A stretch of 64,000 nt of DNA from Artemia franciscana. Lineage: Eukaryota > Arthropoda > Branchiopoda > Anostraca > Artemiidae. The stretch lies in NCBI RefSeq assembly GCF_032884065.1, contig NC_088864.1, positions 18,046,409 to 18,110,408 on the forward strand, written 5' to 3'. Shown here piece after piece: positions 1 to 64,000 of the stretch. Under the pieces are notes generated by a model that saw only the letters and a list, made by a program, of their open reading frames with translations, did no database searches and was not told where the DNA came from. The translations under genes and the position numbers were made by a program. The first letter of the stretch is position 1. Every line of letters starts with the position of its first letter.

Positions 1-1603
1 TGTATGTTAAAGGTGTCTTGATAATATTGTTATTCTCAGTTACTACTTTTTATTTTATTCATCTATCTTGTTTTAGTTACCGTAGACACTTTCTTAACTT
101 TCCACACATGATTAAACCAGGGGTAGCAATTGAAAGATAAACAGGAAGGGTGCGTGCGAGCATAGTATGGCTGGGGCCCAACCCTACATTAAACTTTTTG
201 CCCCAAAATAGACCCATCTACCCCCCTAGTAAAACCTCTTGATCAAACCCACGTAAAATGAAAAGTCTCTTCAACCCAAATTAAGTGGAAATAGAATAGG
301 TTTTAGTTTGATGGAAAACAAGAAGAAACAAACTCCTAATATATAGTATACCTGCTTTATCATTTTTTCTATATACATGAAACACCTTTATTTTCATGAA
401 TTAAAAAATAAAACAAATAAATCAAAGAATTGACCATTCAAATGACTTGTATGCAATGCTACAACTTATTCAATCAAATTAATTAAATCAACAGTACACA
501 TACAAGAAGGAGGGAAAATCCTGAAGAACAAGGAAATGGTTGAGCTATAATACTGACAAGCAGCCTACTCTTAACCTGCGTCACGACTACGAGTAATTGT
601 TTCTGTTTTTACTTATCTGTTTTTACTAGATATTTTATCCAATCATGATATATGCTCCAGTACATAGATTAACATGTGAAACAATTGCCTGTAAATACAA
701 GAATATACCGAGATAAGTTACTCAATCCCAATCTACGAACGACATAGATTGCTCAATACCGAATCAATCTCCAATCAATTAAACCTGATTTATCATTTAG
801 TCAAATAATTAATATAATTTAACAATGATTAATATTAAAAATAATATATAATTATCTAATTATAATTAACCGATATTATAAAGTAATTCATATAATATAT
901 CAGTACTAAAACAATAATTTAAACTAAATTAAAACAATCAACTAATTAAAATAACTAAAATCAAAACTCGATCAATTCCAGTCTACGAAAAATTTTAAGC
1001 GTCAATTGATTTTAGTGGAGCAAGTCAATTATTTCCAGACAAGTTAGGTAAAGATGCGCCTATTTTCCTAGAAAGAAATACTTCAAAGTTTACAATCAAA
1101 CAATAAAAAAAAATAATGATACAAAAAAACAAATGGTCATAATAATAATATAACAAAAATAATATGATAAAAGGCTTTTTGTCGACAAAATCTTATTTAA
1201 GAACAGCAATCCACCCCCACCCCCGCACACATACCTTTTGCATTGAAATGTCTCTACTTAGAATTATAAGTGTCTTTAATAAGAATCCCCTCAATTGGTC
1301 CCTTAATTGGCAAATAAAAATAAATTAGCAGCCTCCATTTTTCGGCTAATAATCCGAAGAAGGTGAAGAGCCTAAGTAACATTAAAGCAAATTACCCTTT
1401 TATATTTCTTATTCGTTTTACAATGGAAGAATACCTGTTAAAGGTTCATATGTTTATTAGCTTGGATGGAGAGGAAGGCGTGATCTCCAGTAATCGACTT
1501 ATATCTACTAATAAGGAGACTGCTTATATATTTATTTGACGAGAAAGCATTCGGTCATCTGAGAATGTGAGCAGTTACTTGGAAATAGATAATCGATTAT
1601 TTT
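1..1603. other. AT-rich stretch without recognised gene
   Basis: Very AT-rich sequence, most extreme at about 780-960. No open frame, splice-bounded exon or known repeat is visible on either strand. The block at 140-300 is more GC-rich but has no coding pattern. It could be intron or intergenic sequence downstream of the minus-strand CEP97-like exons. Confidence 0.5.
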
Positions 1604-2769
1604 TAATTAAATAAAAAATAAGTTTTTCAATTGAATATAAGGAGCAACATTAAAACTTAGAACGAACAAAAAATATTAGGTACATGAGGGGGTTCACCCA
1701 GTCGTCAATAGCTTGCTCTTTACACAAATGTTCAAATTTTGCTCCAATTCTTTAAAAATGAACCCCTGAATCACAAAGCTCGTTTAATTAGGATAAATAG
1801 CTCCTTTGAAACCGCAAAAAAAAGAGAAAAAAATAGTGCAAAGAGCGAAGTATTGACGAGGGGGCAAAGCCCTTCATATAAGTAATAATTTCTGTAAAAA
1901 CTTGTTTTTTTTATTTAATTTCGGATCGTTTTTTAAATAACACCAGAAGATCCTGGCATGAAAAATTCCCTTTCCCCATGAAAAATTAATCTATGGAAAG
2001 GTCCTACCATGTGGCCCCCTCCCTCGTCCCCCAAAGAAAAATCCCTCCTGAAAACATCTGTGTACTTTCTAATAGCCAATGCTATATGTAAACAATGGGC
2101 AAAATTCATAATTTGTAGCTCTTCCCCCGGAGACTTTGGGAAATTAAGTCATCCTCAAAAAGATAATTATTAGATTTTTCGACAATGTTGAGCAAAATGA
2201 CTATCTCAAAATGTTGGTCAGATGACTTTGGGGAAAACATAAGCGTGGGAGGGGGCCTAGTTGCCCTCCAATTTTTTGGTCAATTAAAAAGGCATTAGAA
2301 TTTAATTTCTATTCGAATGAACTCTCTTGCAATATTCTAGAGTCACTAGGTCGATACGATCACCCCTGAAAAAAAAAAAAAACAAAAAAAAAACTAACGA
2401 ACAAATAAACACGTATCCGTAATATTTCTTCTAACAAATAATACAAAATTCTATATTTTTGCATATATGTGCCTGAAACCTCTACAGTAGGATTTTATGA
2501 TACGCTGAATCTGATGGTGTGATTTTCATTAAGATTCTACAACTTTTAAGGCGTGTTTTTCCCTTTTTTCAAAAATAATACAAATTTTCTCAGACTCGTA
2601 ACTCTTGATGGGTAACATTAAACTTAATGAAACTTATACATTTGAACTCAGCATAAAAATGCAATTCTTTTGATGCATCTATCGATATCCAAATTCCGTT
2701 TTTTGAGTTTCAGTTAATATTGACCCTGGTCACTCCTTACCTACAGTTCGTTACCACAAACTATTTGAT
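1604..2769 (+). mobile_element. Family A copy A1, old, single foldback
   Basis: Diverged copy in forward orientation. It starts with the AATTAAATAAAA head, then has a degenerate foldback (arms around 1640-1720 and 1845-1900), the family body, and a decayed palindromic end near 2745-2769. Unlike the 1.7-kb copies it has only one foldback module, joined directly to the body. Its loop matches the internal second module of the long copies. It may represent an older, simpler form or a deletion product. No coding capacity. Confidence 0.8.
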
Positions 2770-3386
2770 TCAAAGGAAAGTGCAGTCTTTTCTAGCCATC
2801 TACATGAAATAAGACATGCCGAGATCCCCTCTTCAAAATTTGTATTCAGGCTTTCTAAGGTGTGCAATTCTCATAGCCCTTGTTGGACCAACTAAAACGA
2901 GGCTTAAACCTTCTATTTTAAATTAACTGATACTAAAGCATGGTTTCATAAATACTAAAAATTTCGAATTGATCAACTGTCCAATCTGAATAAAAAAAAT
3001 TTCAAACTCTGGTTGTCCAGAAAAATTAGAATAAATATAAGTTTTTTGCATATAAGTAACTCGAAGGCAGTTCTATTGACATTAATTAAATCATGCCAAA
3101 TAGATTTATTTAGGCTCTTAGGAAAAATAATTTTTAAGTTTGTGCTTCATTTTCCCTTAGAGGATAGTTTACGTGTCTTTGTTTTCGTTTCTATAACATA
3201 TATTTAGTAAAGCACAATAGACTTAAAAAACAGAAGGCTTTAAAAAGAAACTGAATTTAGTATTTCAAAACTGAGATTCCTGATATTATTTTCCAAAGAA
3301 TGTATAAGAATTTCATTACCTAATCAATTTGAACAGAAGAAATTGCATTTGTGAAATCATATTTTGGTGTGTTTAGCGAATATTAC
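2770..3386. other. AT-rich non-coding DNA, probably intron
   Basis: This lies immediately downstream, on the minus strand, of the splice donor of the CEP97-like exon, so it is probably the start of that gene's next intron. No further leucine-rich-repeat exon was recognised between here and the window start. Confidence 0.45.
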
Positions 3387-6955: not shown

Positions 6956-8695
6956 TAATTAAATAAGAAAACTAGTTTTTCTAACTGAAAGTAAGGAGCG
7001 ACATTAAGACTTAAAACGAACAGAAATTACTCCGTATATGAAATGGGTTGTCCCCTCCGCATTCCCTCACTCTTTACGCTAAAGCTTTTAATTGTTTTAA
7101 AAAGTAGAATTGTGGCAAAGAGTCAAACTTTAGCGTAAAGAGCGAGGGATTGCGGAGGGGACAACCCATTTCATATATGGAGTAATTTCTGTTCGTTTTA
7201 AGTTTTAATGTCGCTCCTTACTTTCAGTAAAAAAAAACTTGTTTTTTTATTTAATTTCTGAATGTTTTTGAATTAATGCATGTTTGATTTTGGCTCTCCG
7301 CACATAAATTATTAAAATGAAATTTGTATATTAATTGTTTTGGGGGCTAAATGGCTTTCTCTTAGTTTTGATCAGACGATTTTAAGAAATAAGGGGTGGG
7401 GAAGGAGGCCTAATTGCCCTCCAATTTTTCGGTTACTTAAAAAGGCAACTAGAACTTTTAATTTTTAACGAACGTTTTTATTAGTAAAAAATATACGTAA
7501 CTTAAGAATTAACTTACGTAACACACTTTTATATCCTTATATTTTTATTATGTATACGAGGGGGTTTGTACCCTCGTCAATACGTCGCTCTTTACACTAA
7601 ATCGTAAGTTTTGTCCCAGTTCTTTAAGAATGACCCCTGAATTAGAAAGCCCGTAGAATAAATAGTTGAAATTACTAAAAATACTTTAGCATAAAGAGCG
7701 AGGTATTTACCTCCTCCTAAAAACCTCGCTCTTTATGCTAAAGTATTTTTAGGACCCCTCATATGCGTAATAATCTCTGTTTTGAGTTTCAATGTTACTC
7801 CTTACTTTCAATTGAAGAAACGTTTTCATGTGTATTTTTTCATTGTTTTTTATAGTTATGTTAGAAAATCCTGCGCCCTTTTCATTGAATTTCTCTTCCC
7901 CCCTGACATATTCCTCGAAGGAAAGATCCTCCCACGTAGCCCCTTCCCCTCAAACCCACCCCCAAACAAAAAAAGCCCCCTGGAAACGTCTGTACACTTC
8001 CCAATTACCATTACTGTATGTAAACACTGGTCAAAGTTTGTAACTTGCAGCCCCTCCCCCAGGGATTATGGGGGAGTAAGTCATTCCTAAAGACATAGTT
8101 ATTATGGTTTTCGACTATGTGGAACAAACTGGCAATCTCAAAATTTTTATCCGTTGACTTTGGGAAAAAATGAGCGTGGGAGGGGGCCAAGGTGCCCTCA
8201 AATTTTTTTGGTCACTTAAAAAGGGCACTAGAACTTTTCATTTCCGTTAGAATGAGCCCTCTTGCGACATTATAGGACCACTTGGTCGATATGATGACCA
8301 CTGGGAAAAAAAAACAAAAAAAAAAACAACAACAAACAAACAAATAAACACGCACCCGTGATTTGTCTTCTGGCAAAAAATACGAAATTCCACATTTTTG
8401 TAGATAAGAGCTTGAAATTTTTGCTATAGGGTTCTCTGATACACCGAATGCGATGGTGTAATTTTCGTTAAGATTCTATGACTTTTAGGGGGTGTTTCCG
8501 CCTATCTTCCACAATATAGCAAATTTTTTCAGGCTCGTAACTTTTGATGACAAAGACTAAATTTGATGAAACTTATATATTTAGAATCAGCATGAAAATC
8601 TGATTCTTTTGATTTATCTTTTAGTATCAAAATTCCGTTTTTTTAGAGTTTCGTTTACTATTTAGCTGGGTCGCTCCTTACCCAGCTAAATAGTA
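6956..8695 (+). mobile_element. Family A copy A2, full length, subfamily 2
   Basis: Forward copy. The foldback arms (about 6982-7080 and 7125-7230) both carry the variant GGGTTGTCCCCTCCGCA or its complement. The loop at 7083-7124 is inverted relative to the body when compared with the copy at 9691. The second module is followed by a small hairpin at 7677-7757 whose arms read TACTTTAGCATAAAGAGCG and its complement. The body carries the subfamily variant GCGCCCTTTTCATTGAATTT. The usual palindromic end is missing and replaced by a snap-back of the body end (8656-8695). Open frames within it are short and not protein-like. Confidence 0.9.
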
Positions 8696-9020
8696 AAAAA
8701 AAACTAATTGCAAAAAAAACTCTAGCATTGAATTATATAATTTTACTCTGGTTCTTGTGATAATTTGATATACATTCTTAAAACTACGTAGATGAGATGA
8801 TATGTGAAAAGACTAAACATTTGAAAGATTTAAATGCGATAATAAATGAACACAAAAAATGAATATTTGAATACAATCAGGTTCAAAACCGCGAAGTACT
8901 TATTTTTTTTTTTTGTTACTAGCCAACAAAATATCGCGAAGTATCAACTTCCCTTAAATTGCTTATAGATAAAAAAGCGAAGTTTCCTTCTTAAATACAG
9001 AGAGCCCTTTCAAGACTTGC

Positions 9021-9166: not shown

Positions 9167-9690
9167 CTACAATGAAGAATAAAAAAGACTTAGGATTGAT
9201 TTGCTATATCCTACATTCATAGAGGAGAGGGGGGGGGGGTCTCATCGTATAGAACTTTGGAGAGACTGTTTATATATTTTGGCTGAATACTTTTCAAATC
9301 TTTCTCAAGAGTTAAGATATTTTCTAACATTTGTTTTTATTTTTTATGGAAGACTAAAAGATGGCCGACCCCCTCCCCTGGTATTCACGAATTGCTTGGA
9401 TAGACCTCAAGATGCACTAAGAATGTTTCTCCTGAAATCTTGCATTAAATTACTTAGAGTAACAAAAACTAGTATATTTGGAATAAATATGAATTCTTTT
9501 AAAATTTTAAAGTAGTTAATTGAGCTTTGTAAATTGAATTTTTATCAATAAACTCCTGAAAATTTCTGAAAGTCTCATTCACCTAGATCAAGTACTTTTT
9601 TTTAATTAAATATCAACAAAAACAGTACATAAACTGATCATCTGCCATACATAAGTTTGTTCAAAAAAGGGGTTGTTGACCCTACTATGT
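9167..9690. other. Non-coding DNA upstream of the CEP97-like exon
   Basis: Contains a pyrimidine tract (minus-strand sense) serving the acceptor at 9167, then ordinary sequence. The open frame at 9201-9515 (+) shows no domain and is probably chance. Confidence 0.4.
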
Positions 9691-11434
9691 AATTAAATAA
9701 AAAAAAAAACTTGTTTTTTTAACTGAAAGTAAGGAGCGACATTAAAACTTAAAACGAACAGAAATTACTTCGTATATGAAAGAGGCTGCTTCCTCATCAA
9801 CGCCCCGCTCTTTACGCTAAAGTTTGACTCTGTCTCTCAATTCTTCTTTTTAAAACAGTAAAAAACTTAAAAACAGTAAAAAACTTTTTAAGTAAAAAAC
9901 TTAGCGTAAAGAGCGGGGCGTTGATGAGGAAGCAGCCTCTTTCATATACGAAGTAATTTCTGTTCGTTTTAAGTTTTAATGTCGCTCCTTACTTTCAGTT
10001 AAAAAAACTTGTTTTTTTTTATTTAATTTCTGAACGTTTTTGAATCAATGCATGTTTTGATTTTGGCTCTCCGCAGAGGAATAATTAAAACGAAATTTGC
10101 ATTTTTTTTTTGGCTAAATGGCTTTCTCATAATTTTTATCGAATGATTTTGAGAAAAAAAGAGCGGGGGAGGAAGCCTAGTTGCCCTCCGATTTTGCGGT
10201 CAATTAAAAAGGCAACTAGAACTTTTAATTTTTTATGAATATCTTTATTGGTAAAAGATTTACGTAACTTATAAATTAGTTTACGTAAAGAACTTTTGTA
10301 TTCTCATATTTTTATTACATATATGAGGGGGCTCGCCCCCTTGTCAGATCCTCGCTCTTTACACTAAAGCTTAAATTTTGTCACAATTCATTAAGAATGA
10401 CCCCAGAATCACAAAAGCCGTAGAATAAATAGTTGAAATTACTAAAAATACTTTAACGTAAAGAGCGAGGTATTAGGAGGAGGTGAGCCCCTCAAATGGG
10501 TAATAATTTCTGTTTGTTTTAAGTTTTAATGCTGTTCCTGACTTTCAGCTGAAAGAACTTTTTCACATTTATTTTTTCATTGTGTTTTTAAATAATGCTA
10601 GTAAATCCTGCGCTCCCTTCATGGAAATTTTCTTCCCCCATGACAAATTATCGAGGGAAAGTTCCCCCAGCATATCCCCGTCTTCTCAACCCCTCCCCCA
10701 ACCAAAAAAATCCTCCTGAAAACGCCTGTACACTTCCCAATAACCATTACTATATGTAAGCATTGGTCAAAGTTTGTAACTTGTTGCCCCTCCCATGGGG
10801 ACTGTGGGGGAGTAAGTCGTCCCCAAAGACATAGTTTTAAGGTTTTTCGACTACGCTGAATAAAATGGCTATCTCAGAATTTTGATCCGTTGACTTTGGT
10901 AAAATAATTAGCGTGGGAGGGTACCTAGGTGCCCTCCAATTTTTTTGGTCACTTAAAAAGGGCACTAGAACTTTTTATTTCCATTAGAATGAGCCCTCTT
11001 GCAACATTCTAGGACAACTGGGTCCATACGATCACCCCTGGAAAAAAAAAAAAAAAACAAAAAAAAACAAATAAACACGCATCCGTGATCTGCCTTCTGG
11101 CAAAAAATACAAAATTCCACATTTTTGTAGATATGAGCTTGAAACTTCTACAGTAGGGTTCTCTGATACGCTGAATCTGATGATGTTATTTTCGTTAAGA
11201 TTCTATGACTTCTAGGGGGCGTTTCCCCCTATTTTCTAAAATAACGCAAATTTTCTCAGGCTCGTAACTTTTGATGGGTAAGACTAAACTTGATGAAACT
11301 TATATATTTAAAATCAGCATTAAAATGCGATTCTTTTGATGTAGGTATTGGTAACAAAATTTTATTTTTTAGAGTTTTGGTTACTATTGAGCCGGGTCGC
11401 TCCTTACTACAGTTCGTTACCACGAACTGTTTGA
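9691..11434 (+). mobile_element. Family A copy A3, full length, subfamily 1
   Basis: Best reference copy of the family. Order: head AATTAAATAAAA; left arm (about 9721-9824), loop, right arm (about 9901-10000); spacer; second, imperfect foldback (about 10320-10380 pairing with 10445-10505); body with a poly(A)/C tract near 11040-11075; terminal palindrome ending at 11434. The arms share CCTCATCAACGCCCCGCTC and its complement. The loop has a small internal duplication of AAAAACTTAAAAACAGT-like sequence. Nearly identical to the copy at 57185-58907, suggesting recent common origin. No protein is encoded. Confidence 0.92.
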
Positions 11435-30075: not shown

Positions 30076-30827
30076 GGATCAAATCTTGGGAACCGTCTTT
30101 CCAATTCCCAAAGACCATAGATAGTTGAATCCCTGTCCAACTTACTGATCCTTTTTTCTAAGTCGTGAATCAGTCTTCAAAATTTATTAAAGCCTAACAG
30201 ATAGGAAAGAAGTGAATGCGCGAACTAGGAAATGCCTTTCCAAATTCTAATTTGGTATATAGATCCATTTCTGAAAGCAGAGCCGTTCCTAGGGGTGGTG
30301 GCAATACAGTGCCACCTCTTGACTTTAATATAAGCAAAAACTGCCGAATCAAAGCGAAAAATTTGATCAAAGTGGGTAACCTCCAAACCGTGGCACCATC
30401 CAGCCAGGGTTCTTGGGGTGGTTTGCCACGGTTACCTTACTTTGAACGGCTCTGTCCCGAAAGACTTCATTCATGCAACACAACAACTTTGGGAGTTAGG
30501 GGAACTATCCCTTAAGCTGCAATTTACATTTCAGGCTATTATATTAAAGGCGTTAGTCATTTAAATAGTGGAAAAACCAAATCCGAATCAAACACAAAAA
30601 TCAGCTTGAATTCTGTAACTCGGAAACGACCTTTTAGCTTTAGCTTACAATTAGATTTTTTTTTTTTACTTGTTACTTCTAGTAAAGTAGTTCAAGCAAA
30701 TTTTCGTAATGGGGTTCTCAAGCTTTTTCAAGGTGATTTCGAATCATCTGAAACGACCATATTTGATTTTAACTGCTATTTTCCAGTCTATAGCAGATCG
30801 TTTTATAATTGATACGTTTATAATGTA
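30076..30827. other. Unassigned sequence between LINE-A and family A copy A4
   Basis: The open frame at 30216-30515 (+), with VPRGGGNTVPPLDFNI in its middle, has no recognisable domain. An inverted pair GGTTACC..GGTAACC near 30378 and 30431 is too short to interpret. Confidence 0.3.
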
Positions 30828-31590
30828 TCAAACAGTCTTTGGTAACGAACTATAGTAAGGAAAGACCTGCCTCAATAGCAACCGAAACTCTACAAAATGG
30901 AGTTTTGATAAAAGAATCGCATTTTTATGCTGATTCTAAATATATAAGTTTCATCAAGTTTGATCTTACACATCAAAAGTTAGGAGCCTGAGAAAATTTG
31001 CCTAATTTTAAAAATTAGGTGGAAATACCCCCTAAAGTCATATAATCTTAACGAAAATCACACAATCTAATTCAGCGTATCAGAGAACCCTATTGTAGAA
31101 GTTCCCAGCTCCTATCTACAAAAAGTGGAATTTTGAATTTTTTGCCAGAAGATAGATCACGGATGCGTGTTCATTTGTTTTTTCCCCCAGGGGTGATTGT
31201 ATCGACCCAGTTACATGGGAGGATCTTTCCATGGAGAAACTTACATGAGGGACGAAAATTTTCATGAAGGGGCCGCAGGATCTTCTAGTATTATTTAAAA
31301 AAAAACAACGAGAAAAAAAAATTCGTCTCGAAGTTAGGATTAGCATTAAAACCTAAAAAGAACAGGAAATATTTCGTATATAAAGGGGTTGTACCCTCCT
31401 CAACGCCTCGCTCTTTATTCTAAAGTTTTTTTTTTTTAAAGTAGAGTTGTGAAAAAGAGTCAAAATTTAGCGTGAAGAACATGGCGTTGAGGAGGGAACA
31501 ACCCCTTTCATATACGGAATAATTTCTGTTCGTTTTAAGTTTTGATGTCGCTCCTTACTTGCAGTTAAAAACTTGTTTTTTTTTAAATCT
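30828..31590 (-). mobile_element. Family A copy A4, internally deleted
   Basis: Reverse copy. It starts with a mutated palindrome (CAGTCTTTGGTAACGAACTA) and runs normally to about 31210. It then jumps across part of the body (junction near GACCCAGTTAC|ATGGGAGG) and ends with a complete foldback (about 31360-31575) whose arms share CCTCCTCAACGCC or its complement. A deletion derivative that kept both ends. Confidence 0.85.
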
Positions 31591-34825: not shown

Positions 34826-36515
34826 TCAAACAGTTCGTGGTAACGAACTGTAGTAAGGAGCGACTCGGCTCAATAGTAACCAAAACTCTAAAAAATCGAG
34901 TTTTGGTACCAATAGCTACATCAAAAGAATCGAATTTTAATGCTGATTTTAAATATATAAGTTTCATCAAGTTTAGTCTTACCCATCAAAAGTAACGAGC
35001 CTGGGAAAATTTGCGTTATTTTAGAAAATAGGGGGAAACACCCCCTAAAAGTCATGGAATCTTAACGAAAATCACACCATCAGATTCAGCGTATTCGAGG
35101 ACCCTCCTGTAGAAGTTTCAAGCTCATATCTACAAAAACGTGGAATTTTATATTTTTTTACAAAACACGGATACGCGTTTATTTGTTTGTTTGTTTATTT
35201 TTTTGTTGTTTTTTTTTTCCAGGGGTGATCGTATCGACCCAGGTGTCCTAGAATGTTGCAAGAGGGCTCATTTTAAAGGAAATGAAAAGTTCTAGTGCCC
35301 TTTTCAAGTGACCAAAAAAATTGGAGGGCAACTAGGCCCCCTCCCACGCTCATTATTTTCCCAAAGTCAACGGATCAAAATTCTGAGATAGCCATTTTAT
35401 TCAACATAGTCGAAAAATCTTATAACTATGTCTTTAGGGACAACTTACTCCCCCACAGTCCCCGTGGGAGGGGTTACAAGTTCAAAACTTTGACCAGTGC
35501 TTACATATAGTAATGGTTATTGGGAAGTGTATAGGCGTTTTCAGGAGGATTTTTTGGTTGGAGGCAGGGGTTGAGAAGAGGGGGATATGCTGGGGGAACT
35601 TTCCATCGAGGAATTTGTCATGGGGAAAGAAAATTTCTATGAAGGGAGCGCAGGATTTACTAGCATTACTTAAAAAAAACAATGAAAAAATAAATACGAA
35701 AAAGTTTTTTTTCAGCTGGAAGTAAGCAGCAGCATTAAAACTTAAAACGAACAAAAAATTATTAACCATATTAGGGGATCACCTCCTAATACCTCTCTCT
35801 TTACGCTAAAGTATTTTTAGTAATTTCAACTATTTATTCTGCGGCTTTTGTGATTCAGGGGTCCTTCTTAATGAATTGGGACAAAATTTAAGCTTTAGTG
35901 TAAAGAGCAAGGTACTGACGAGGGGGCGAACCCCGCTCATATATGTAATAAAAACATGAGAATACAAAAGTTCTTTACGTAAGCTAATTTATAAGTTACG
36001 TATATCTTTTACTTATAAAAAAATTCGTAGAAAATTAAAAGTTCTAGTTGTCTTTTTAATTAACCGAAAATCGGAGGGAAACTAGGTTCCTCCCCCGCTC
36101 TTCTTTTCTCAAAATCATTCGATCAAAATTATGAGAAAGCCGTTTAGCCAAAAAAAAGAGATAAATATACAAATTTCGTTTTAATTATTTCTCTGCGGAG
36201 AGCCAAAATCAAAACATGCATTGATTCAAAAACGTTCAGAAATTAAATAAAAAAAAAGTTTTTTTTAAATGAAAGTAAGGACTCATATTACTCCGTATAT
36301 GAAAGGGGCTTTTCCTTCTCAACCCCCCGCTCTTTACGCTAAAGTTTGACTCTTTCTCTTAACTCTACATTTTAAAACAGTAAAAAACTTTAGCGTAAAG
36401 AGTGGGGGGTTGAGAAGGAAAAGCCCCTTTCATATACGGAGTAATTTCTGTTCGTTTTAAGTTTTAATGTCGCTCCTTACTTTCATTTAAAAAAACTTGT
36501 TTTTTTTTATTTAAT
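34826..36515 (-). mobile_element. Family A copy A5, full length, subfamily 1, flipped loop
   Basis: Reverse copy from the intact palindrome CAGTTCGTGGTAACGAACTG to the TTTATTTAAT end. The foldback lies at about 36270-36490, and its arms share GGGGCTTTTCCTTCTCAACC or its complement, a variant private to this copy. The loop (36343-36397) reads GTTTGACTC first, opposite to the reverse copy at 40349. The left outer arm is shortened (GTAAGGACTCATATTACTCC), lacking the ACATTAAAACTT segment. No coding. Confidence 0.92.
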
Positions 36516-36536
36516 TAGAATCAAGATCAAGTAGTT

Positions 36537-36946: not shown

Positions 36947-37174
<228 letters not shown>

Positions 37175-38249: not shown

Positions 38250-38736
38250 TTAGTATATTTTTACTAATAAAAACGTTCGCGAAAAATTATAAGTTCTAGT
38301 TGCCTTTTTAAGTAATAAAAAAATTGGAGGGTAACTAGGCCTCCTCCCCTGCTCCTTTTTTTTCAAAATCGTCCGATCAGAACTATGAGAAAGCCATTTG
38401 GCCAAAAAAATAAATTAATCTGCAAATTTCGTTTTAATTATTCATGTGCGGAGAGCCAAAATCAAAAGATGCATTAATTCAAAAACGTTCAGAAATGAAA
38501 TAAAAAAAAGTTTTTTTTAACTGAAAGTAAGGGAGTGACATTAACGCCCCGCTCTTTACGCTCAAGTTTTTTAACTGTTTTAAAAAGTAGAGTTGAGAGA
38601 AAGAGTCAAACCTTAGCGTAAAGAGTGGGGTGCTGAGGAGGGGACAGCCCCTTACATATACGGAATAATTTCTGCTCGTTTTAAGTTTTAATGTCACTCC
38701 TTACTATCAGTTAAAAAACTTGTTTTTTTACTTAAT
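38250..38736 (-). mobile_element. Family A copy A13, foldback-end fragment
   Basis: Reverse copy starting inside the body (TTAGTATATTTTTACTAATA) and ending with a partial foldback (about 38515-38715). The outer part of one arm is missing: GGAGTGACATTAA|CGCCCCGCTC. The arms therefore match only over the GCTCTTTACGCT region. Confidence 0.82.
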
Positions 38737-38939
38737 ATTTCAAAGGACCCACATCATTGAGCACAAGCGAAAACATACAAGGCGAAGGGGAAGATTTAGA
38801 AATACCTTTGCCTTTAGCCCTTAACCCAAATTCGTTTTTGAATTATTCTCAGAAGAGAACCTTATCCTACCCCCCCCCAAATCTTCAAAGTAAAAAAGAA
38901 CTTGAATTTATCAGCGATATATCAACAATGTAATCGCCA

Positions 38940-40310: not shown

Positions 40311-40348
40311 GTAGCGATGTAGAATGAAAAAAACTATGTGCATCCATA

Positions 40349-42053
40349 TCAAACAGTTCGTGGTAACGAACTGTAGTAAGGAGCGACCCGGCTCAATAGT
40401 AACCGAAACTCTAAAAAACGAAAGTTTGATACCAATAGTTACATCAAAAGAATCGCATTTTAATGTTGGTTTTAAATATATAAGTTTCATCAAGTTTAGT
40501 CTTATCCATCAGAAGTTACGAGCTTGAGAAAATTCGCTTTATTTTAGAAAATAGGGGGAAACGCCCCCTAAAAGTCATAGAATCTTAACGAAAATCACAC
40601 CATCAGATTCAGCGTATCAGAGAACCCTACTGTAGAAGTTTCGAGCTCCTATCTACAAAAATGGGGAATTTTGCATTTTTTGCCAGAAGGCAGATCACGG
40701 ATGCGTGTTTATTTGTTTTTTTTGTTTTTTTTTTTTTCCCAGGGGTGATCGTATCGACCCAGTTGTCCTAGAATGTTGCAAGAGGGCTCATTCTAACGGA
40801 AATGAAAAGTTCTAGTGCCCTTTTTAAGTGACCAAAAAATTGGAGGGCACCTACCCTCCCACGCTAATTATTTTCCCAAAGTCAACGGATCAAAATTCTG
40901 AGATAGCCATTTTATTCAGCGTAGTCAAAAAACCTTATAACTATGTCTTTGGGGACGACTTACTCCCCCACAGTCCCCGTGGGAGGGGCAACAAGTTACA
41001 AACTTTGACCTGTGCTTACATATAGTAATGGTTATTGGGAAGTATACAGGCGTTTTCAGGAGGATTTTTTTGGTTTGGGGGAGGGGTTGAGAAGAGATGG
41101 ATATGCTGGGGGAACTTTCCTTCGAGAATTTGTAATGGGAGAAGAAAATTTCCATGAAGGGAGAGCAGGATTTACTAGCATTATTAAAAAAAAAACAATT
41201 AAAAAATAAAAGTGAAAAAGCTTTTTCAGCTGGAAGTAAGGAACAGCAATAAAACTTAAAACAAACAGAAATTATTACCCATATGAGGGGCTCACCTCCT
41301 TCTAATACCTCGCTCTTTACGCTAAAGTATTTTCGGTAATTTCAACTACTTATTCTACGGCTTTTGTGATTCAGGGGGTCATTCTTAATGAATTGGGATA
41401 AAATTTAAGCTTTAGTGTAAAGAGCGAGGTACTGACGAGGGGGCAAATCCCCTCATATATGTAATAAAAACATGAGAATACAAAAGTTCTTTACGTAAGC
41501 TAATTTATAATTTACGTAAATCTTTTACCAATAAAAAGATTTGTAAAAAATTAAAAGTTCTAGTTGCCTTTTTAATTAACCAAAAAATCGGGGGGCAACT
41601 AGGCTTCGTCCCCCGCTCTTTTTTTCTCAAAATCATTCGATCAAAATTATGAGAAAGCCATTGAGCCAAAAAAAAAATATGCAAATTTTGTTTCGATCAT
41701 TCCTCTGCGGAGAGCCAAAATCAAAACATGCATTGATTCAAAAACGTTCAGAAATTAAATAAAAAAAACAAGTTTTTTCAACTGAAAGTAAGGAGTGACA
41801 TCAAAACTTAAAACGCACAGAAATTACTTCGTATATGAAAGAGGCTGCTTCCTCATCAACGCCCCGCTCTTTACGCTAAAGTTTTTTACTGTTTTAGAAA
41901 GAAGAATTGAGAGAAAGAGTCAAACTTTAGCGTAAAGAGCGGGGTGTTGATGAGGAAGCAGCCTCTTTCATATACGAAGTAATTTCTGTGCATTTTAAGT
42001 TTTGATGTCACTCCTTACTTTCAGTTGAAAAAAATAGTTTTTTTTTATTTAAT
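40349..42053 (-). mobile_element. Family A copy A6, full length, subfamily 1
   Basis: Reverse copy with an intact palindrome (40352-40373), full body and a complete foldback (about 41778-42030). The arms share GAGGCTGCTTCCTCATCAAC or its complement, the same variant as A3 and A9. The loop (41880-41926) is in the standard orientation relative to the body. One arm end reads AAACGCACAG and its partner CTGTGCATTT, so the unusual GC/CG step occurs in both arms. Confidence 0.92.
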
Positions 42054-46390: not shown

Positions 46391-46689
46391 CGAAAAGCAA
46401 TTTTATCTAATATAAGCTGTACAAAGCATCATAATAATATCTATTATAAATTGGACCGATAAGCCGGAATATATTGTGGAAGTTTGGCTGAGAGGTTACA
46501 ATATCTAGCGCAAGTAAGACCAAGAAGACGTAATATCCAGTGTAAGTTGGGTTTCCTAGGGGGAGGGATAGCAGCCCCTGCTGAGTATGCCTATTTGTTG
46601 AACAAGCTCATTTGAGAAATTTTTGAAAAATGTGATTTAATTAGACTATACTGGGTACTTTTTTAATGTCCAACCCCACTCAAGAATTT
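46391..46689. other. No recognised feature
   Basis: Short unique stretch between the decayed coding relic and family A copy A7. Confidence 0.4.
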
Positions 46690-48388
46690 TCAAACAGTTC
46701 GTGGTAACGAACTGTATTGAATTTTGATATCAATAGCTACACAAAAAGAATTGCATTTTAATGCTAATTTTAAATATATAAGTTTCATCAAGTTTAGTCT
46801 TACCCATGAAAAGTTACGAGCCTGAGAAAATTTGCCTTATTTAAGAAAATAGGGGGGAACACCCCCTGAAAGTCATATAATCTTAACGAAAATCACACCA
46901 TCAGATTCGGCGTATTAGAGAACCCTATTGTACAAGTTCCAAGCTCCTATCTACAAAAATGTGGAATTTTGTATTTTTTGCCAGAAGACAAATCACGGTT
47001 GCGTGTTTATTTATTTTTTTTTTTTTTCCCAGGGGTCATCGTATCGACCAAGTGGTCCTAGAATGTCGCAAGAGGGCTCATTCTAACGGAAATGAAAAGT
47101 TCTAGTGCCCTTTTTAAGTAACCAAAAAAATTGGAGGGCATCTAGGCCCCCTCCCACGCTCATTTTTTCCCAATGTCAACGGATCAAAATTTTGAGATAG
47201 CCATTTTGTTCAACATAGTCGAAAACCATAATAACTATGTATTTGGGGATGATTTACTCCCCCACAATCCCTCGGGGAGGGGCTGCAAGTTACAAACTTT
47301 GACCAGTGTTTACATATAGTAATGGTTATTGGGAAGTGTACAGACGTTTTCAGGGGGATTTTATTTTGTTTGGGGGGTGGGGCTGAGGGGAGGGGAATAT
47401 GTTGGAGGATATTTCCTTGGAGGAATCTGTCATGGGGGAAAAAATTCAAGGAAAAGGGCGCATGATTTTCTAGCATTACTATAAGAAAACAATGAAAAAT
47501 AAACATGAAAACGTTTTTTCAAATGAAAGGAAGGAGTAGCATTGAAACTTAAAACGAACAGAGATTATAACGCATATGAGGGGTTCTAAAAATACTTTAG
47601 CATAAAGAGCGAGGTACTTAGGAGGAGATAAATACCTCTCTCTTTATGCTAAAGTATTTTTAGTAATTTCAACTATTTATTCTACGGCCTTTCTGATTCA
47701 GGGGTCATTCTTAAAGAATTGGGACAAAACTTAAGATTTAGTGTAAAGAGCGAGGTATTAACGAGGATACAAACCCCCTTGTATACATAATAAAAATATA
47801 AGATTATAAAAGTTTGTTACGTAAGTTGCTAATTTATAAGTTACGTATAATTTTTACTAATAAAAACGTTCGTTAAAAATTAAAAGTTCTAGTTTCCTTT
47901 TTAAGCAACCGAAAAATTGGAGGGCAACTAGGCCTCCTTCTCCACCCCTTATTTCTCAAAATCGTCTGATCAAAACTAAGAGAAAGCCATTTAGCCAAAA
48001 AAAGAATTAATATACAAATTTCATTTTAATAATTTATGTGCGGAGAGCCAAAACCAAACATGCATTAATTCAAAAACGTTCAGAAATTAAATAAAAAAAA
48101 AAACTAATTTTTTTAGCTGAAAGTAAGGAGTGACATTAAAACTTAAAACGAACAGAAATTACTCCGTATATAAAATGGTTTGTCCCCTCCGCAATCCCTC
48201 GCTCTTTACGTTAAAGTTTGATTCTTTGTCACAATTCTACTTTTTAAAACAATTAAAAACTTTAGCGTAAAGAGCGAGGCATTGCGGAGGGGACAAACCA
48301 TTTTATATACGGAGTAATTTCTGTTCGTTTTAAGTTTTAATGTCACTCCTTACTTTCAGCTAAAAAAATTAGTTTTTTTTTATTTAAT
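46690..48388 (-). mobile_element. Family A copy A7, full length, subfamily 2, flipped loop
   Basis: Reverse copy with an intact palindrome but about 45 bases missing just inside it (AACGAACTGTA|TTGAATTTTG). Subfamily 2 body (AAATTCAAGGAAAAGGGCGC) and a third hairpin near 47585-47660. The foldback lies at about 48115-48365, with arms sharing TGTCCCCTCCGCAATCC or its complement. The loop (48217-48262) reads GTTTGATTC first, opposite to the standard reverse copy. Confidence 0.92.
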
Positions 48389-49041
48389 TCCTAAAAGAGG
48401 GTATCTACTTTATCTTGTGAATAGCTTACGAATTCAGCTGAAATTTTCACGGGGTACCTGGAGCCAAATAGAACTCAAATGTTGACTTGGTGGGTATTTA
48501 AAGGTAAATTTGGAAAAAAATATCCAAAATATCCTAATTCCACGTCTATTACATCTTCTTTTGTAACATCAGGTAGGGATTGATATGGTACTTTTGAAAT
48601 ATTTTGAATGTCTGAAAAAGGACAGCAAGTTTTTCTTGTAAGCTTGAAACTGATACTCAGGAGCTATTTGGTCAAGGAAGGCCTTACATAGAAGAAGCTT
48701 GAAAAAAAAATCCATGCAAAAATTGGACCAGTGTTTGTTTACAGATCACTCAAGATTTTTAGTACTTTTGTTTAGTTGACCCAGTTACTTGACTCCGAAT
48801 GTCATCAGTCATTCCAGACCGAAAGGACAAGACGACATAGCATGCAAAAAAACGGAGCATTATATTTCATATCTCCAAAATGATACCACAAGTTTTTTGA
48901 CCTGGTCGACGGAGATTAAGTTTTAAGAGAAGAACCGTGTAGTTTTTGGAAGGGAAGAGGATGCGTCGACCAAATTTTCACCTTTGGATTAATAACTGAG
49001 AAGTGACAGATTCATTATATAATTTCAGTCTTTATTTTTAT
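48389..49041. repeat. Spacer between inverted copies A7 and A8
   Basis: Contains a segment related to the 39580-40310 tandem repeat (48418-48520) and otherwise unique DNA. It is the spacer of a 4-kb inverted repeat formed by A7 and A8. Confidence 0.5.
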
Positions 49042-50771
49042 TAAATAAAAAAAAACTAGTTCTTTTAACTGTAAGTAAGGAGCGACATTAAAACTTAAAA
49101 CGAACAGAAATTACTCCGTATATGAAATGGGTTGTCCCCTCCTCAACGTCTCGCTCTTTACGCTAAAGTTTGACTCTTTGCCACAATAGTACTTTTTAAA
49201 ACAATTAAAAGCTTTAGCGTAAAGAGCGAGGCGTTGAAGAGGGGACAACCCATTTCATATATGAAAAAAAAAACAGTTAAAAAAACTATTTTTTTTTTAT
49301 TTAATTTCTGAACGTTTTGAATTAATGCATATTTGATTTTGGCTCTCCACCATAGGACTTGTCCAATCTTATTGAATTTTTTGTATTGAATCAGATTAAC
49401 AGATTATTAAAATGAAATTTGCATATTAATTCCTTTTTTGGCTAAATGGCTTTCTCTTAGTTTTGATCAGACGATTTTGAGAAATAAGGGGTGGGCAAGG
49501 AGGCCTAGTTGCCCTCCAATTTTAGGGTTAAATAAAAAGGCAAATATAACTTTTAATTTTTAACTAACATTTCTATTAGTAAAAAATATACGTAACTTAA
49601 GAATTAACTTACGTAACAAACTTTTATGTTCTTATATTTTTATTATGTATATAAGGGGGTTTGTACCGTCGTTGATGCCTCGCTCTTTACACTAAATCGT
49701 AAGTTTTGTCTCAATTCTTTAAGAATGACCCCTGAATCAGAAAGGCCGTAGAGTAAATAGTTGAAATTACTAAAAATACTTTAGCATAAAAAGCGAGGTA
49801 TTTATCTCCTCCTAAATACCTCGCTATTTATGCTAAAGTATATTTAGAGCCCCTCATATGCGTAATAATCTCTGTTCGTTTTAAGCTTCAATGCTACTCC
49901 TTACTTTCTCCTTAATTGAAAAAAACTTTTTCATGTTTATTTTTTCATTGTTTTTTTTTATGGTAGTCTTAGAAAACCCTGCGCCCTTTTCATTGAATTT
50001 CTCTTCCCCCATGACATATTTCTCCAAGGAAAGATCTTCCCACATAGCCCCCTCCCCTCAGCCCCACCCCCAAAACCAAAAAATCCCCCTGAAAACGTCT
50101 CTACACTTCCCAATAACGATTATTATATGTAAACACTGGTCAAAGTGGGGGAGTAAGTCATTCCCAAAGACATAGTTATTATGGTTTTCGACCATGCGGA
50201 AAAAAATGGCTATCTCAAAATTTTGATCCATTGACTTTGGAGAAAAAATGAGCGTTGGAGGGGGCCTAGGTGCCCTCCAATTTTTTGGTCACTTAAAAAG
50301 GGCACTAGAACTTTTCATTCATTTAGAATGAGCCCTTTTGCGACATTCTAGGACCACTTGGTTGATACGATGACCCCTCGGGAAAAGAAAAAAACAAAAA
50401 ACAAACAAATAAACACGCACCCATGATTTGTTTTCTGGCAAAAAATACGAGATTCCACATTTTTGTAGATAGGAGCTTGAAATTTTTGCTATAGGGTTCT
50501 CTGATATGCCGAATGCGATGGTGTGATATTCGTTAAGATTCTATGACTTTTACGGGGTGTTTCCCCCTATTTTCCAAAGTAAAGCAAATTTTCTCAGGCT
50601 CGTAACTTTTGATGACAAACATTGAAGTTGATGAAACTTATATATTTAAAAGCAGCATGAAAATCCAATTCTTTTGATGTATATTTTAGCATCAAAATTC
50701 CGTTTTTTAGAGTTTCGTTTATATTGAGCCGCGTCGCTCCTTACTACAGTTCGTTACCACGAACTGTTTGA
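49042..50771 (+). mobile_element. Family A copy A8, full length, subfamily 2
   Basis: Forward copy. Foldback at about 49063-49265 with arms sharing GGGTTGTCCCCTC, but the right arm lacks its outer 50 or so bases (CATATATG|AAAAAAAAAACAGTT). The loop is in standard orientation. The third hairpin lies at about 49770-49850 and an intact palindrome ends at 50771. A region near 49350-49410 has an extra insertion of about 50 bases (ACTTGTCCAATCTTATTGAA) not seen in A2 or A7. Confidence 0.92.
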
Positions 50772-50775
50772 TAGA

Positions 50776-56999: not shown

Positions 57000-57184
57000 T
57001 TTCATCATAAAAGAGATCCCATCGATGAGGAAGAATTACATTTCTCCAAAGGTCTTTAAAGGCAGTCATGCTGAAAGTAAATATACATTGTTACAATTAC
57101 AATAAAGTGGTTGTAAATTGATTAAAGTAAAGAGGTTGTAGGGAGTGGTAGACCGTTCATGCACAAGATGACCTTGTGTATGAT
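57000..57184. repeat. Block R, copy 1 left part, split by A9
   Basis: GATGAGGAAGAATTACATTT, CAAAGGTCTTTAAAGGCAGT and the CAAGATGACC end recur near 59060-59110 and 59920-59985. The match resumes after A9 at 58910. Confidence 0.65.
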
Positions 57185-58907
57185 CAAATAAAAAAACAAG
57201 TTTTTTTAACTGAAAGTAAGGAGCGACAATAAAACTCAAAACGAACAGAAATTACTTCGTATATGAAAGAGGCTGCTTCCTCATCAACGCCCCGCTCTTT
57301 ACGCTAAAGTTTGACTCTGTCTATCAATTCTTCTTTTTAAAACAGTAAAAAACTTTAGCGTAAAGAGCGGGGCGTTGATGAGGAAGCAGCCTCTTTCATA
57401 TACGAAGTAATTTCTGTTCGTTTTAAGTTTTAATGTCGCTCCTTACTTTCAGTTAAAAAAACTTGTTTTTTTTTTTATTTAATTTCTGAACGTTTTTGAA
57501 TCAATGCATGTTTTGATTTTGGCTCTCCGCAGAGGAATAATTAAAACGAAATTTGCATTTTTTTTTTTTTTTTGGCTAAATGGCTTTCTCATAATTTTGA
57601 TCGAATGATTTTGAGAAAAAAAGAGCGGGAGAGGAAGCCTAGTTGCCCTCCGATTTTTTGGTTAATTAAAAAGGCAACTAGAACTTTTAATTTTTTACGA
57701 ATATTTTTATTAGTAAAAGATTTACGTAACTTATAAATTAGCTTACGTAAAAAACTTTTGTATTCTCATATTTTTATTACATATATGAGGGGGTTCGCCC
57801 CATTGTCAGATCCTCGCTCTTTACAATAAAAGCTTAAATTCTGTCCCAATTCATTAAGAATGACCCCAGAATCACAAAAGCCGTAGAATAAATAGTTGAA
57901 ATTACTAAAAATACTTTAACGTAAAGAGCGAGGTATTAGGAGGAGGTGAGCCCCTCAAATGGGTAATAATTTCTGTTTTTTTTTAAGTTTTAATGCTGTT
58001 CCTTACTTCCAGGTGAAAGTACTTTTTCATATTTATTTTTTCATTGTGTTTTTAAATAATGCTAGTAAATCCTGCGCTCCCTTCATGGAGATTTTCATCC
58101 CCCATGACAAATTATCGATGGAAAGTTCCCCCAGCATATCCCCTTCTTCTCAACCCCTCCCCCAACCAAAAAAATCCTCCTGAAAACGCCTGTACACTTC
58201 CCAATAACCATTACTATATGTAAGCATTGGTCAAAGTTTGTAACTTGTTGCCCCTCCCATGGGGACTGTGGGGGAGTAAGTCGTCCCTAAAGACATAGTT
58301 ATAAGGTTTTCCGACTACGCTGAATAAAATGGCTATCTCAGAATTTTGATCCGTTGACTTTGGTAAAATAATTAGCGTGGGAGGGGGCCTAGGTGCCCTC
58401 CAATTTTTTTGGTCACTTAAAAAGGGCACTAGAACTTTTCATTTCCGTTAGAATGAGCCCTTTTGCAACATTCTAGGACAACTGGGTCGATACGATCACC
58501 CATGGAAAAAAAACAAAACAAAAAACAAAAAAACAAACAAACAAATAAACACGCATCCGTGATCTGCCTTCTGGCAAAAAATACAAAATTCCACATTTGT
58601 GTAGATAGGAGCTTGAAACTTCTACAGTAGGGTTCTCTGATACGCTGAATCTGATGGTGAGATTTTGTTAAGATTCTATGACTTCTAGGGGGCGTTTCCC
58701 CCTATTTTCTAAAATAACGCAAATTTTCTCAGGCTCGTAACTTTTGATGGGTAAGACTAAACTTGATGAAACTTATATATTTAAAATCAACATTAAAATG
58801 CGATTCTTTTGATGTAGGTATTGGTATCAAAATTCCATTTTTTAGAGTTTTGGTTAATATTGAGCCGGGTCGCTCCTTACTACAGTTCGTAACCACGAAC
58901 TGTTTGA
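57185..58907 (+). mobile_element. Family A copy A9, full length, subfamily 1
   Basis: Forward copy almost identical to A3. Foldback at about 57208-57460 with arms GAGGCTGCTTCCTCATCAAC or complement and the loop in standard orientation. Imperfect second foldback, body, and terminal palindrome with one change (GTTCGTAACCACGAAC). It interrupts block R, whose other copy at 59900-60180 lacks the insertion. Confidence 0.93.
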
Positions 58908-59120
58908 TGCTAAAAACGAATTCTGTATGTTATCTACTTCGAGTTCATTCGCTAGGAATCCACCGCTGTGACCCTTATGCCTTTTTTGCTTGAGATGTTT
59001 GTATAGATATAAGAGAAAAACTACACAGAAATAATACAGATCTAACCCTCCAGAACAAAAATGAATGATGAGGAAGAATTACTTTTCTCCAAAGGACTTT
59101 AAAGCCAGTCATGATGAAAA
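58908..59120. repeat. Block R, copy 1 right part
   Basis: Matches 59992-60140: GTGACCCTTATGCCTTTTTT / GTGACCTTTACGCCTTTTTG, GCTTGAGAT, TAGATATAAGA and AGATCTAACCCTCCAGAAC / AAATCTAACCCTCCAGAAC. Confidence 0.75.
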
Positions 59121-61290: not shown

Positions 61291-61483
61291 AAACTGATTC
61301 TTGCACCCTTACTCTCAGAACTTGCACTTCAACTCTCAAAACCTTCAAAAATTCATTCATTATGCTAACATTATCAGTATAATACTAGGATGCTTAAATC
61401 ATCTGCATAACCTATGTCTAGGAGAATTTTTGGTTTATATTTTTTTGGAATTTAATTTTCTGGGTTTCAGAGCATCGCTGTAG

Positions 61484-61999
61484 TCAAACAGTTCGTGTTA
61501 ATGAACTGTAAGTAAGTAGCGATGCGGCTCAATAGTAACCGAAAAACTATGAATCAGAGTCTTGATAACAATAGGTGTATCAGAAGCATCGAATTTTAAT
61601 GGTTATTCAAAATAAGTAAAATTCGTCAAATTTAATATTACCCATCAAATGTTACGAGCCTGAAAAATTTTGCCCAATTTAATAAAAGGGAGGAAACCCC
61701 CTAGTATATCAAGTGACTTTAATCAAAATCCCACCACCAGATTCAACATACCAGAGAACCCTACTGCAGATTTTCAAGCTCCTATCTACAAAAATGTGGA
61801 ATTTGTAATTTTTTTGCCAGAAGAAAGATCACGGATGCGTGTCTTTTTCCGTTCTTTTTTCTTCTCAGGGGGTTTTCACATCAAACCAGTGGTCCTAGAA
61901 TGTCACAAGAGGGCTCATTTGAACGGAAATTAAAGGTTCTAGTCCCCTTTTTAAGTGCCCAGAACATTATAGGGCAACTGGGCCCCCTCCCACGCTCAT
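61484..61999 (-). mobile_element. Family A copy A10, truncated palindrome-end fragment
   Basis: Reverse copy from a mutated palindrome (CAGTTCGTGTTAATGAACTG) to CCCCTCCCACGCTCAT, where the next copy begins abruptly. More diverged than its neighbour. Confidence 0.85.
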
Positions 62000-63491
62000 A
62001 GTTCGTGGTAACGAACTGTAGTAAGGACCGGCCCGGCTCAATAGGAACTGAAACTCTATAAAACAAAATATTAATACCAATAGTTACATAAAGAAATCAC
62101 ATTTTTATGCTGATTTTACATATATATACGTTTCGTCAAGTTTAGTCTTACCCATTAGCCTGAGAAAATTTGCCTTATTTTAGAAAATAAGGAGAAAAAC
62201 TCACTAAAAGTCATTAAATCTCAACACTATCAAGTTCAGCGTATCAGAGAACCCTGCTGTAGAAGTTTCAAGCTCCTATCTACAAAAATGTGGAATTATG
62301 TATTTTTTTGCCAGAAGACAGATCATGGATGCGTGTTTATTTTTTTTTTATTTTTTTTTCCCAGGGGTGATCGTATCGATCCAGAGATCCTAACATGTTT
62401 CGAGAGAGCTCATTCTAACAGACATTAAAAGTTCCAGTGCTCTTTATGTGACCAAAAATTGGAGGGCACCCAGGCCCCTCCCACTCTCATTTTTCCCCAA
62501 AGTCACCAGATCAAAATTCTGAGATAGCCAATTTGTTCAGCATAGTCAAAAAACCTAACAGTTATGTCTTTTGGGACGAATTAATCCCCAATAGTCGCCG
62601 GGGGAGGGGCTGCGAGTTACAAACTTTGACCCTTGTTTACATATAGTAAGGGTTATTGGGATGTGTACAGACGTTTTCAGGGGGACTTTTACGTGTTGAA
62701 GGAGGGGAGGTGGGTCACGGGAGGGGGTTTCGTGGGAGGATCTTTCCATGGAGGAATTTATCATGGGGTAAGAGAATTTCCATGAAGGGGCTGCAGCATT
62801 TTCTAGCATTATTTAAAAAAAAAGAGAAAACAAATAAAACAAAATTTCAGCTGGAAGTAAGGAGTAGAGTTAAATCCTAAAAAGAACAGAAATTATAAAG
62901 TAAATAAGGAGGTTCAGCTCCTCTACAATACCTCGATCTTTACACTAAATTATTTCAGTAATTTCAACTATTTATTCTACGGCCTTTGTAATTCAGGGCT
63001 CATTCTTAAAGAATTGGGACAAAATATTGTATTGACGATTATTTGAAGAGGTATTGACGAGGGGGTGAACCCACTCATAGACGTCATAAAAATATACAAA
63101 TATAGAAGTTCGTTACGTAGGTTAATTCGTAAGTTACGTATATTTATTACTAACAAAAACGTTCGTTAAAAATAAAAAGATCTAGTTGCCTTTCCAAGGA
63201 ACCAAAAATTGGAGGGCAATCCCCCGCCCTTTTTTAATCATATCAAAATCGCAAATCGTATATTATTCCGTATATGAAAGGTGCTGTCCCCTCCTCAACG
63301 CCTCGCTCTTTACGCTAAAGTTTTTTATTGTTTTAAAAAGTAGAGTTTTAAGAAAGAGTCAAAATCTAGCGTAAAGAGCCAGGCGTTGAGGAGGGGACAA
63401 CTCCTCACATATACGGAATAATTTCTGTTGGTTTTAAGCTTTAATGTTGTTCCTTACTTGCAGTTAAAAAAAACTTTTTTTTTTAATTTAA
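62000..63491 (-). mobile_element. Family A copy A11, near full length
   Basis: Reverse copy starting at AGTTCGTGGTAACGAACTG (without the usual leading CAAAC), immediately after A10. Diverged body, foldback at about 63265-63470 with arms sharing CTGTCCCCTCCTCAACGCC or its complement, loop in standard orientation, and a T-rich end. Between body and foldback a stretch is deleted (near 63235-63260). Confidence 0.87.
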
Positions 63492-63742
63492 TGCTTACAC
63501 AAGTTGACTACCTGTTTCAGTTAAATATCGTAGTTTTGGATACAGGCTTATAATTCAAGTGCTCTTTAATGGGTCCTTTCGGGTCGTGAAATCAAATAGT
63601 ACAAACATTGGGTGAATTTAGCCAAGGCCAAACTTTCTTTGGAATAAACCGTATATATAGGTTAAGGGTTAAGACATCTAAACCCCCCTTGGAAAAGGCC
63701 TACGCCCATTTTTAAGAAACTGGACCCCGTCCCTTTAAGGAA
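63492..63742. other. Short unique gap
   Basis: No repeat or gene recognised between A11 and A12. Confidence 0.35.
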
Positions 63743-64000
63743 TTTAAATAAAAAACAAGTGTTTTTAACTGAAAGTAAGGAGCGATATTAAAACTTAAAA
63801 CGAACATAAATAACTTCGTATATGAAAGGGGCTGCTTCCTCATCAACGCCCCGCTCTTTACGCTAAAGTTTGACTCTTTCTCTCAACTCTTCTTTTTAAA
63901 ACAGTAAAAACAGTACACAATTTTTTGTAGATAGGAGCTCGAAAATTCCACAATAGGGTTCTCTGACGCGCTAAATCTGATGGTGTAATTTTCGTGAAGA
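63743..64000 (+). mobile_element. Family A copy A12, runs off the window, internally deleted
   Basis: Forward head and left arm with CTGCTTCCTCATCAACGCC, then part of the loop. At about 63905 the sequence jumps to the distal body (TTTTTGTAGATAGGAGCTCG), skipping the right arm, second module and most of the body. Continues beyond the window end. Confidence 0.85.

Follow-up and report, generated by a model that had tools for sequence, protein, structure and literature searches.

How can the two arms of a long DNA hairpin stay alike within each copy while the copies themselves diverge? The question arises in a 64,000-nucleotide stretch of the Artemia franciscana genome (here 'the window', with a GC content of 34.7%), where a repeat of ~1.7 kb is present as about a dozen full or partial copies. 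The repeat is a noncoding-looking transposable element, Helitron-like in character, and its 3′ end is closed by a hairpin termed H1. From one copy, E5, and its relatives, the initial annotation had proposed that one arm of H1 is copied from the other. The copies and their hairpins are collected in Table 1.

Table 1 Copies of the element and their hairpins, with positions in the window
Feature	Positions	Strand	Description
E1	1601..2770	-	old copy
E2	6956..8697	-	hairpin A2, loop orientation as A5; has H3 and private 5′ palindrome H4
H3 of E2	7675..7752	-	palindrome
H4 of E2	8654..8697	-	palindrome in place of usual 5′ start; 18-bp perfect arms
E3	9690..11434	-	hairpin A3, majority loop orientation, loop 76 nt
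E4	30824..31590	+	internal deletion; hairpin A4 with strongly diverged arms
E5	34826..36516	+	~1.7 kb copy with the H1 of the initial annotation; start TCAAACAGTTCG, end TTATTTAATT
H2 of E5	35773..35940	+	inner decayed hairpin, 81-nt loop, internal control
H1 left arm, A5	36241..36344	+	~23 nt deleted
H1 loop, A5	36345..36387	+	43 nt, minority orientation
H1 right arm, A5	36388..36516	+	up to element 3′ end
A5b	38253..38740	+	5′-truncated copy; left arm mostly deleted; majority loop
E6	40348..42053	+	hairpin A6, majority loop
E7	46646..48395	+	hairpin A7, loop orientation as A5; H3 at 47586-47663
E8	49029..50772	-	hairpin A8, majority loop; H3 at 49770-49847
E9	57169..58908	-	hairpin A9, majority loop
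E11	61479..63492	+	5′ part duplicated; hairpin A11, majority loop
A12	63740..64000	-	partial copy with half hairpin, runs past window edge

E5 starts with TCAAACAGTTCGTGGTAACGAACTG, carries the inner decayed hairpin H2, and ends in H1, whose right arm reaches the conserved end TATTTAAT; the usual termini of the element are TCAAACAG...TATTTAAT. E5 itself contains no ORF of 100 aa, and E2, E6, and E7 overlap ORFs of 100 aa on the opposite strand. In the ML body tree of eight copies, E3, E9, E6, and E5 form clade X, E2, E7, and E8 form group Y, and E11 stands next to X (support 93–100). An exact-pattern search for further copies returned 0 matches in viral_contigs (viral DNA) and 0 in genome_contigs (bacterial and archaeal DNA). 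In the neighborhood of E5, an imperfect inverted repeat that is not of the family adjoins the element (36549–36900; 135 alignment columns, 72%), and a long GA dinucleotide tract lies beyond E5 at 36950–37170. Another imperfect palindrome outside the family (24950–25172; 67%) starts with ATTACTCCATA, resembling part of the H1 arm, and may be a distant relative.

From ten copies, H1 arms were excised starting at the loop and moving outward, and the 20 arms, with one half hairpin in addition, were aligned, giving an arm core of 99 columns. Permutation, simulation, and mismatch counts were made with A2, A3, A5, A6, A7, A8, and A9, and A4 and A11 were included in the distance table, the arm tree, and a nine-copy count. 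Excluded from the arm statistics are A5b, whose left arm is deleted, the half hairpin A12, and A1 and A10, which are old and have a different loop. The non-homologous stretches of the A8, A11, and A5 left arms were masked.

That the arms agree within a foldback while the copies disagree, as first noticed from E5 and its relatives, was borne out with two exceptions. Left and right arms differ at 0 of 99 positions in A3, 1 of 70 in A5, 2 of 99 in each of A6, A7, and A9, 5 of 99 in A2, and 3 of 53 in A8. The pooled mismatches of these seven copies are thus 15 in 618 paired positions, to be compared with an arm difference of 1.0–18.2% between copies (21 pairs, each the mean over four arm comparisons). 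The exceptions are A4 and A11, whose arms differ at 23 of 98 and 6 of 57 positions, respectively. In A5, the ~23 nt missing from the left arm are still present in the right arm.

The true left–right pairing of the seven copies gives the minimum of all 5040 assignments, and again the minimum of 144 assignments when arms are shuffled within subfamilies; each time two assignments reach it, because the left arms of A3 and A9 are identical. When arms were simulated to evolve independently along the body tree, 110.2 mismatches were obtained on average and 66 at the minimum, so that 0 of 2000 runs came as low as the observed count. Copy by copy, A8 alone was equalled by any run (1 of 2000).

A tree of left and right arms had been suggested by the initial annotation, with clustering of arms by side as the outcome that would speak against copying. 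In the ML tree of the 18 arms in the window, arms pair by copy for A5 (94), A6 (97), A7 (92), and A8 (56). The base of the tree is unresolved and holds both A2 arms side by side, and the arms of A3 are indistinguishable from those of A9. A4 and A11 remain unpaired, which counts against copying and may be owed to their greater age. When the tree was constrained to separate left arms from right arms, it became 98.6 lnL worse and was rejected for H1 (AU p = 1.15e-6).

Fold-back artefacts occur in long-read and whole-genome-amplified DNA, which speaks for an assembly or amplification origin from fold-back reads. However, the copies differ in arm type, carry changes confined to one arm, and have 3′ ends that are alike at many sites; the matched arms also agree for the most part with the independent body tree, making an artefact extremely unlikely.

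Differences present in both arms occupy 18 columns and fall into six groups: the X/Y split (5 columns), A3 with A6 and A9 (4), A2 with A7 (2), A5 (2), A6 (2), and A7 (3). The suggestion that such variants are private to copies holds for the seven columns that mark single copies, while the remaining 11 mark groups. Among the individual variants named by the initial annotation, TGTCCCCTCCGCA is found by exact match in both arms of A2 and A7, TTTTCCTTCTCAACC likewise in both arms of A5, and the 'GCAC/GTGC' change of A6 is present in both of its arms (core column 36). Two others were correct in part: A3 and A9 each carry CTTCCTCATCAACG in both arms, whereas in A6 the final base of the second arm is different, and A11 has GTCCCCTCCTCAACG in its two arms, whereas A8 matches exactly in only one.

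When a minor base is carried by exactly two of the 14 arms of the seven copies, those two arms belong to the same copy in 7 of 9 cases, as against 0.7 expected (P = 5e-7). The other 2 of 9 are shared by different copies, which counts against copying. With A4 and A11 added, two-arm minor bases fall within one copy in 5 of 9 cases (0.5 expected, P = 7e-5); in this nine-copy set, two of the seven bases that marked a single copy in both arms cease to be private, as A4 has them in one arm.

Because both-arm differences are spread across several groups, arm-to-arm copying must have recurred, with its products inherited by subfamilies. On the ML body tree E2 joins E8, so the carriers of the A2 and A7 variants are not a clade. 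Therefore, at least five branches are certainly involved in both-arm changes, and the pattern shared by A2 and A7 needs a reversal, an exchange, or an error in the tree.

Matched changes could alternatively be kept by selection for base pairing, in an RNA or a DNA hairpin, with compensatory changes preserving the stem. The stem is strong, and the both-arm changes (12 transitions and 6 transversions) are more transition-rich than the body, where transversions make up 43–55% in seven body pairs, higher than among both-arm or one-arm changes. One-arm changes comprise 11 transitions and 4 transversions, indistinguishable from the both-arm changes in what is a weak test (Fisher p = 0.72). On the other hand, 6 of the 18 both-arm changes are transversions, which no G–U step bridges, and one-arm mismatches read as G–U have no strand bias, with counts of 6 and 5 for the two transcript senses and 4 mismatches unpairable. 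Arms also evolve between copies at 0.90 of the body divergence (slope, 21 pairs), an arm-versus-body comparison likewise proposed at the outset, and Rfam gave no match at the gathering score in 34700–36700. Compensatory selection on an RNA stem was accordingly disfavored by the G–U counts, the transversion share, and the arm rate, and selection of this kind is very unlikely to be what matches the arms.

The loop supplies the strongest evidence for arm-to-arm copying, which the initial annotation did not contain. The H1 loop lies one way in A2, A5, and A7 and is reverse-complemented in A3, A4, A5b, A6, A8, A9, and A11 (3 versus 7 of the 10 scored), and both orientations occur inside both body clades. 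Between A2 and A8, the loops disagree at 29 of 43 positions as they lie, but at only 2 of 43 in a common orientation. Once all loops are set to one orientation, they follow the subfamilies. Fitch parsimony requires three flips on the ML body tree, or two if A2 and A7 are taken as sisters. Loops are 43 nt long, save those of A3 (76 nt), A4 (39 nt), and A5b (44 nt); the greater length in A3 (9808–9913) comes from a local tandem duplication.

Selection on the stem leaves loop inversion unexplained. Exchange between the arms, by homologous recombination or by cruciform resolution, would account jointly for matching and inversion, as gene conversion would match the arms and a crossover would invert the loop. 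However, arms of ~100–125 bp are short for ordinary homologous recombination, and recombination does not explain the births of two further palindromes, H3 and H4, so we consider it unlikely.

The inner hairpin H2 provides a comparison within the same element. It was compared in seven copies over 25 nt, with H2 of E1, E4, and E11 left out. Its arms differ at 3–7 of 25 positions per copy (mean 22%), while left arms differ from one another by 9.5% and right arms by 16%, and the H2 arm tree separates right arms from left arms (support 78 from 25 nt only). The arm-tree test can thus also give the outcome opposite to that of H1. The H2 loop has the same orientation in 7 of 7 sequences. H2 shows neither arm matching nor loop flipping, although as a control it is limited to 25 comparable nt, has a longer loop, and is already diverged.

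H3 occurs only in group Y, in E2, E7, and E8. Its new arm matches the inverted left arm of the neighboring H2, of the X type, at 38–40 of 42 alignment columns; apparently, the H2 left arm was copied in inverted form in the group Y subfamily, giving rise to H3. Its 35-nt arms have 1–2 mismatches in each of the three copies, so even a near-perfect palindrome is not always kept perfect, which counts against copying. H4 is an 18-bp inverted copy of adjacent sequence at the 5′ end of E2, where the usual element start is absent. Palindromes newly made by inverted copying were, like the loop inversions, absent from the initial annotation. Together with pairing by copy, these two findings support the original proposal that one arm is copied from the other.

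We conceived that such copying proceeds by template switching. During DNA copying, either chromosomal replication or element amplification, a nascent strand would sometimes leave one arm, copy the other, and return. A tract copied within the arms would make them identical, a switch between strands spanning the loop would leave it inverted, and switches outside H1 could generate new palindromes such as H3 and H4. Template switching between arms, mostly before or at insertion, would explain the matching of H1, the loop flips, H3, and H4, and we put its probability at roughly 0.6.

As for the timing, half of the left–right mismatch, which ranges from 0 to 5.3%, rises with the terminal body branch (r = 0.92, eight copies, one window). 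This correlation includes A11 and omits A4, whose half-mismatch is about 12% and which is not in the body tree. With longer branches going together with poorer matching, the arms seem to drift apart once a copy is resident, and matching would act mainly before or at insertion. Coming from one window, the correlation fits arm copying 'every cycle' as well as 'now and then'.

The same correlation, looking as if arms were reset at insertion, would also be expected if transposition passed through a folded single-stranded or hairpin-capped intermediate, in a rolling-hairpin-like manner. Stem mismatches would then be repaired and cap opening would flip the loop, with the arms reset at each transposition. 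The position of H1 at the element 3′ end, the absence of a target duplication over 4 bp in eight copies, and the great stability of the folded A5 hairpin (−100.6 kcal/mol, z −22) all suit such an intermediate. However, H3 and H4, although located in other parts of the element, resemble inverted copies too, which this route explains less simply, and no Rep or helicase domain was seen in the 14 scanned of the 27 window ORFs. Hence it is a tentative candidate, on the doubtful side. A bolder version makes the terminal hairpin a self-renewing transposon end, in which one arm is made anew from the other at every round of amplification by way of a folded single-stranded intermediate, the flip and flop loops are products of that process, and arm mismatch is a built-in insertion clock; this appears rather unlikely. 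We infer template switching, rather than recombination or hairpin-intermediate repair, acting mainly before or at insertion.

The element shares features with the Helentron derivatives HINE and DINE-1 but lacks some of the defining ones, so it is not filed in that family and is called Helitron-like only. As in HINEs, for which subterminal inverted repeats of ~12–15 bp are characteristic, the 5′ and 3′ ends of the element share an inverted match of 13–20 bp. In E5, comparison of the 5′ end with the inverted 3′ end gives AGTAAGGAGCGAC, matched at 13 of 13 positions (score 13, with 12 the best of 1000 shuffles). No adjacent repeat exceeds 4 bp in eight copies, in agreement with HINE insertion without target duplication; E4, E5, and E7 have 4-bp matches near their ends, and E3 one of 3 bp. 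The T-flanked insertion of HINEs is absent, the base before the 5′ end being A in six, G in two, and T in one of nine intact 5′ ends. The canonical Helitron 5′ TC begins 9 of 11 5′ ends, the exceptions being E2 and the inner E11 start, but the canonical CTRR at the 3′ end, with insertion between A and T, is missing, as the end TATTTAAT is without CTRR and the following base varies. A 3′ palindrome is present with arms over 100 bp. Foldback elements have long inverted repeats at both ends, whereas this element has its long hairpin solely at the 3′ end.

A Pfam scan covered 14 of the 27 ORFs of at least 100 aa in the window, other than those antisense to E2, E6, and E7. RVT_1 and DUF6451 were found in one ORF, with one further hit below its cut-off. 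The ORF with these domains is one of several ORF fragments at 28222–29722, which are probably a decayed non-LTR retrotransposon.

In the excerpt of a report on Helentrons, HINEs, and DINE-1 elements (PMC4067079), the likenesses to our element are the inverted repeat in subterminal position, a palindrome at each end, insertion that leaves no target duplication, and a copy that needs no protein. The differences are that their 3′ palindrome is 5–10 bp with T flanking each end, whereas here the arms are over 100 bp, the base before the 5′ end is mostly A, and no Rep or helicase partner was seen in the 14 scanned ORFs; the subterminal repeat also lies 2–4 nt from the end in mite HINEs and ~27 nt from the 5′ end here. 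Foldback-like elements such as Galileo likewise have long DNA able to fold back, but in the description consulted (PMC4168063) both termini bear long inverted repeats and the target duplications are of 7 bp, as against a hairpin at one end only.

Template switching itself has been described before. In yeast it results in arm homogenisation and spacer inversion, recurrently and reversibly, according to the excerpt of PMC8604942, and both hallmarks, homogenised arms and an inverted loop, are found in H1. The yeast cases in that excerpt are short repeats in coding genes with spacer inversions amounting to substitutions of 2–5 bp and arms longer than 9 bp, whereas H1 belongs to a mobile element, with arms of 100–125 bp and a loop that is 43 nt long in most copies. 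At microRNA and rRNA loci, the excerpt of PMC8794818 describes template switches that can create hairpins and invert loops. The likeness there extends to new stems apparently arising in one event, loop inversion, and matched stem changes, but its authors call the evidence for maintenance circumstantial, whereas here several copies of one hairpin serve as replicate histories. Counting against the parallel, the inverted spacers or loops in these two excerpts are at most 8 nt where a length is given, much shorter than the H1 loop.

Arm matching, loop inversion, and births by inverted copying together are the published signature of template switching between inverted-repeat arms, and on this reading H1 is a clear natural example of an already known kind of mutation. 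A literature search gave, among the titles and abstract openings listed, no account of arm homogenisation, loop inversion, or template switching in a transposon hairpin, which is not proof of absence.

In this family, arm matching, loop inversion, and palindrome birth are found together, and the dispersed copies of one hairpin let arm-to-arm copying be followed in replicate natural histories, for which the decayed hairpin of the same element is a control. If it is true that resetting of the arms is confined to the time before or at insertion, the age of each copy could be read from its arm mismatch with no need of an outgroup, as is done with LTRs in retrotransposons.
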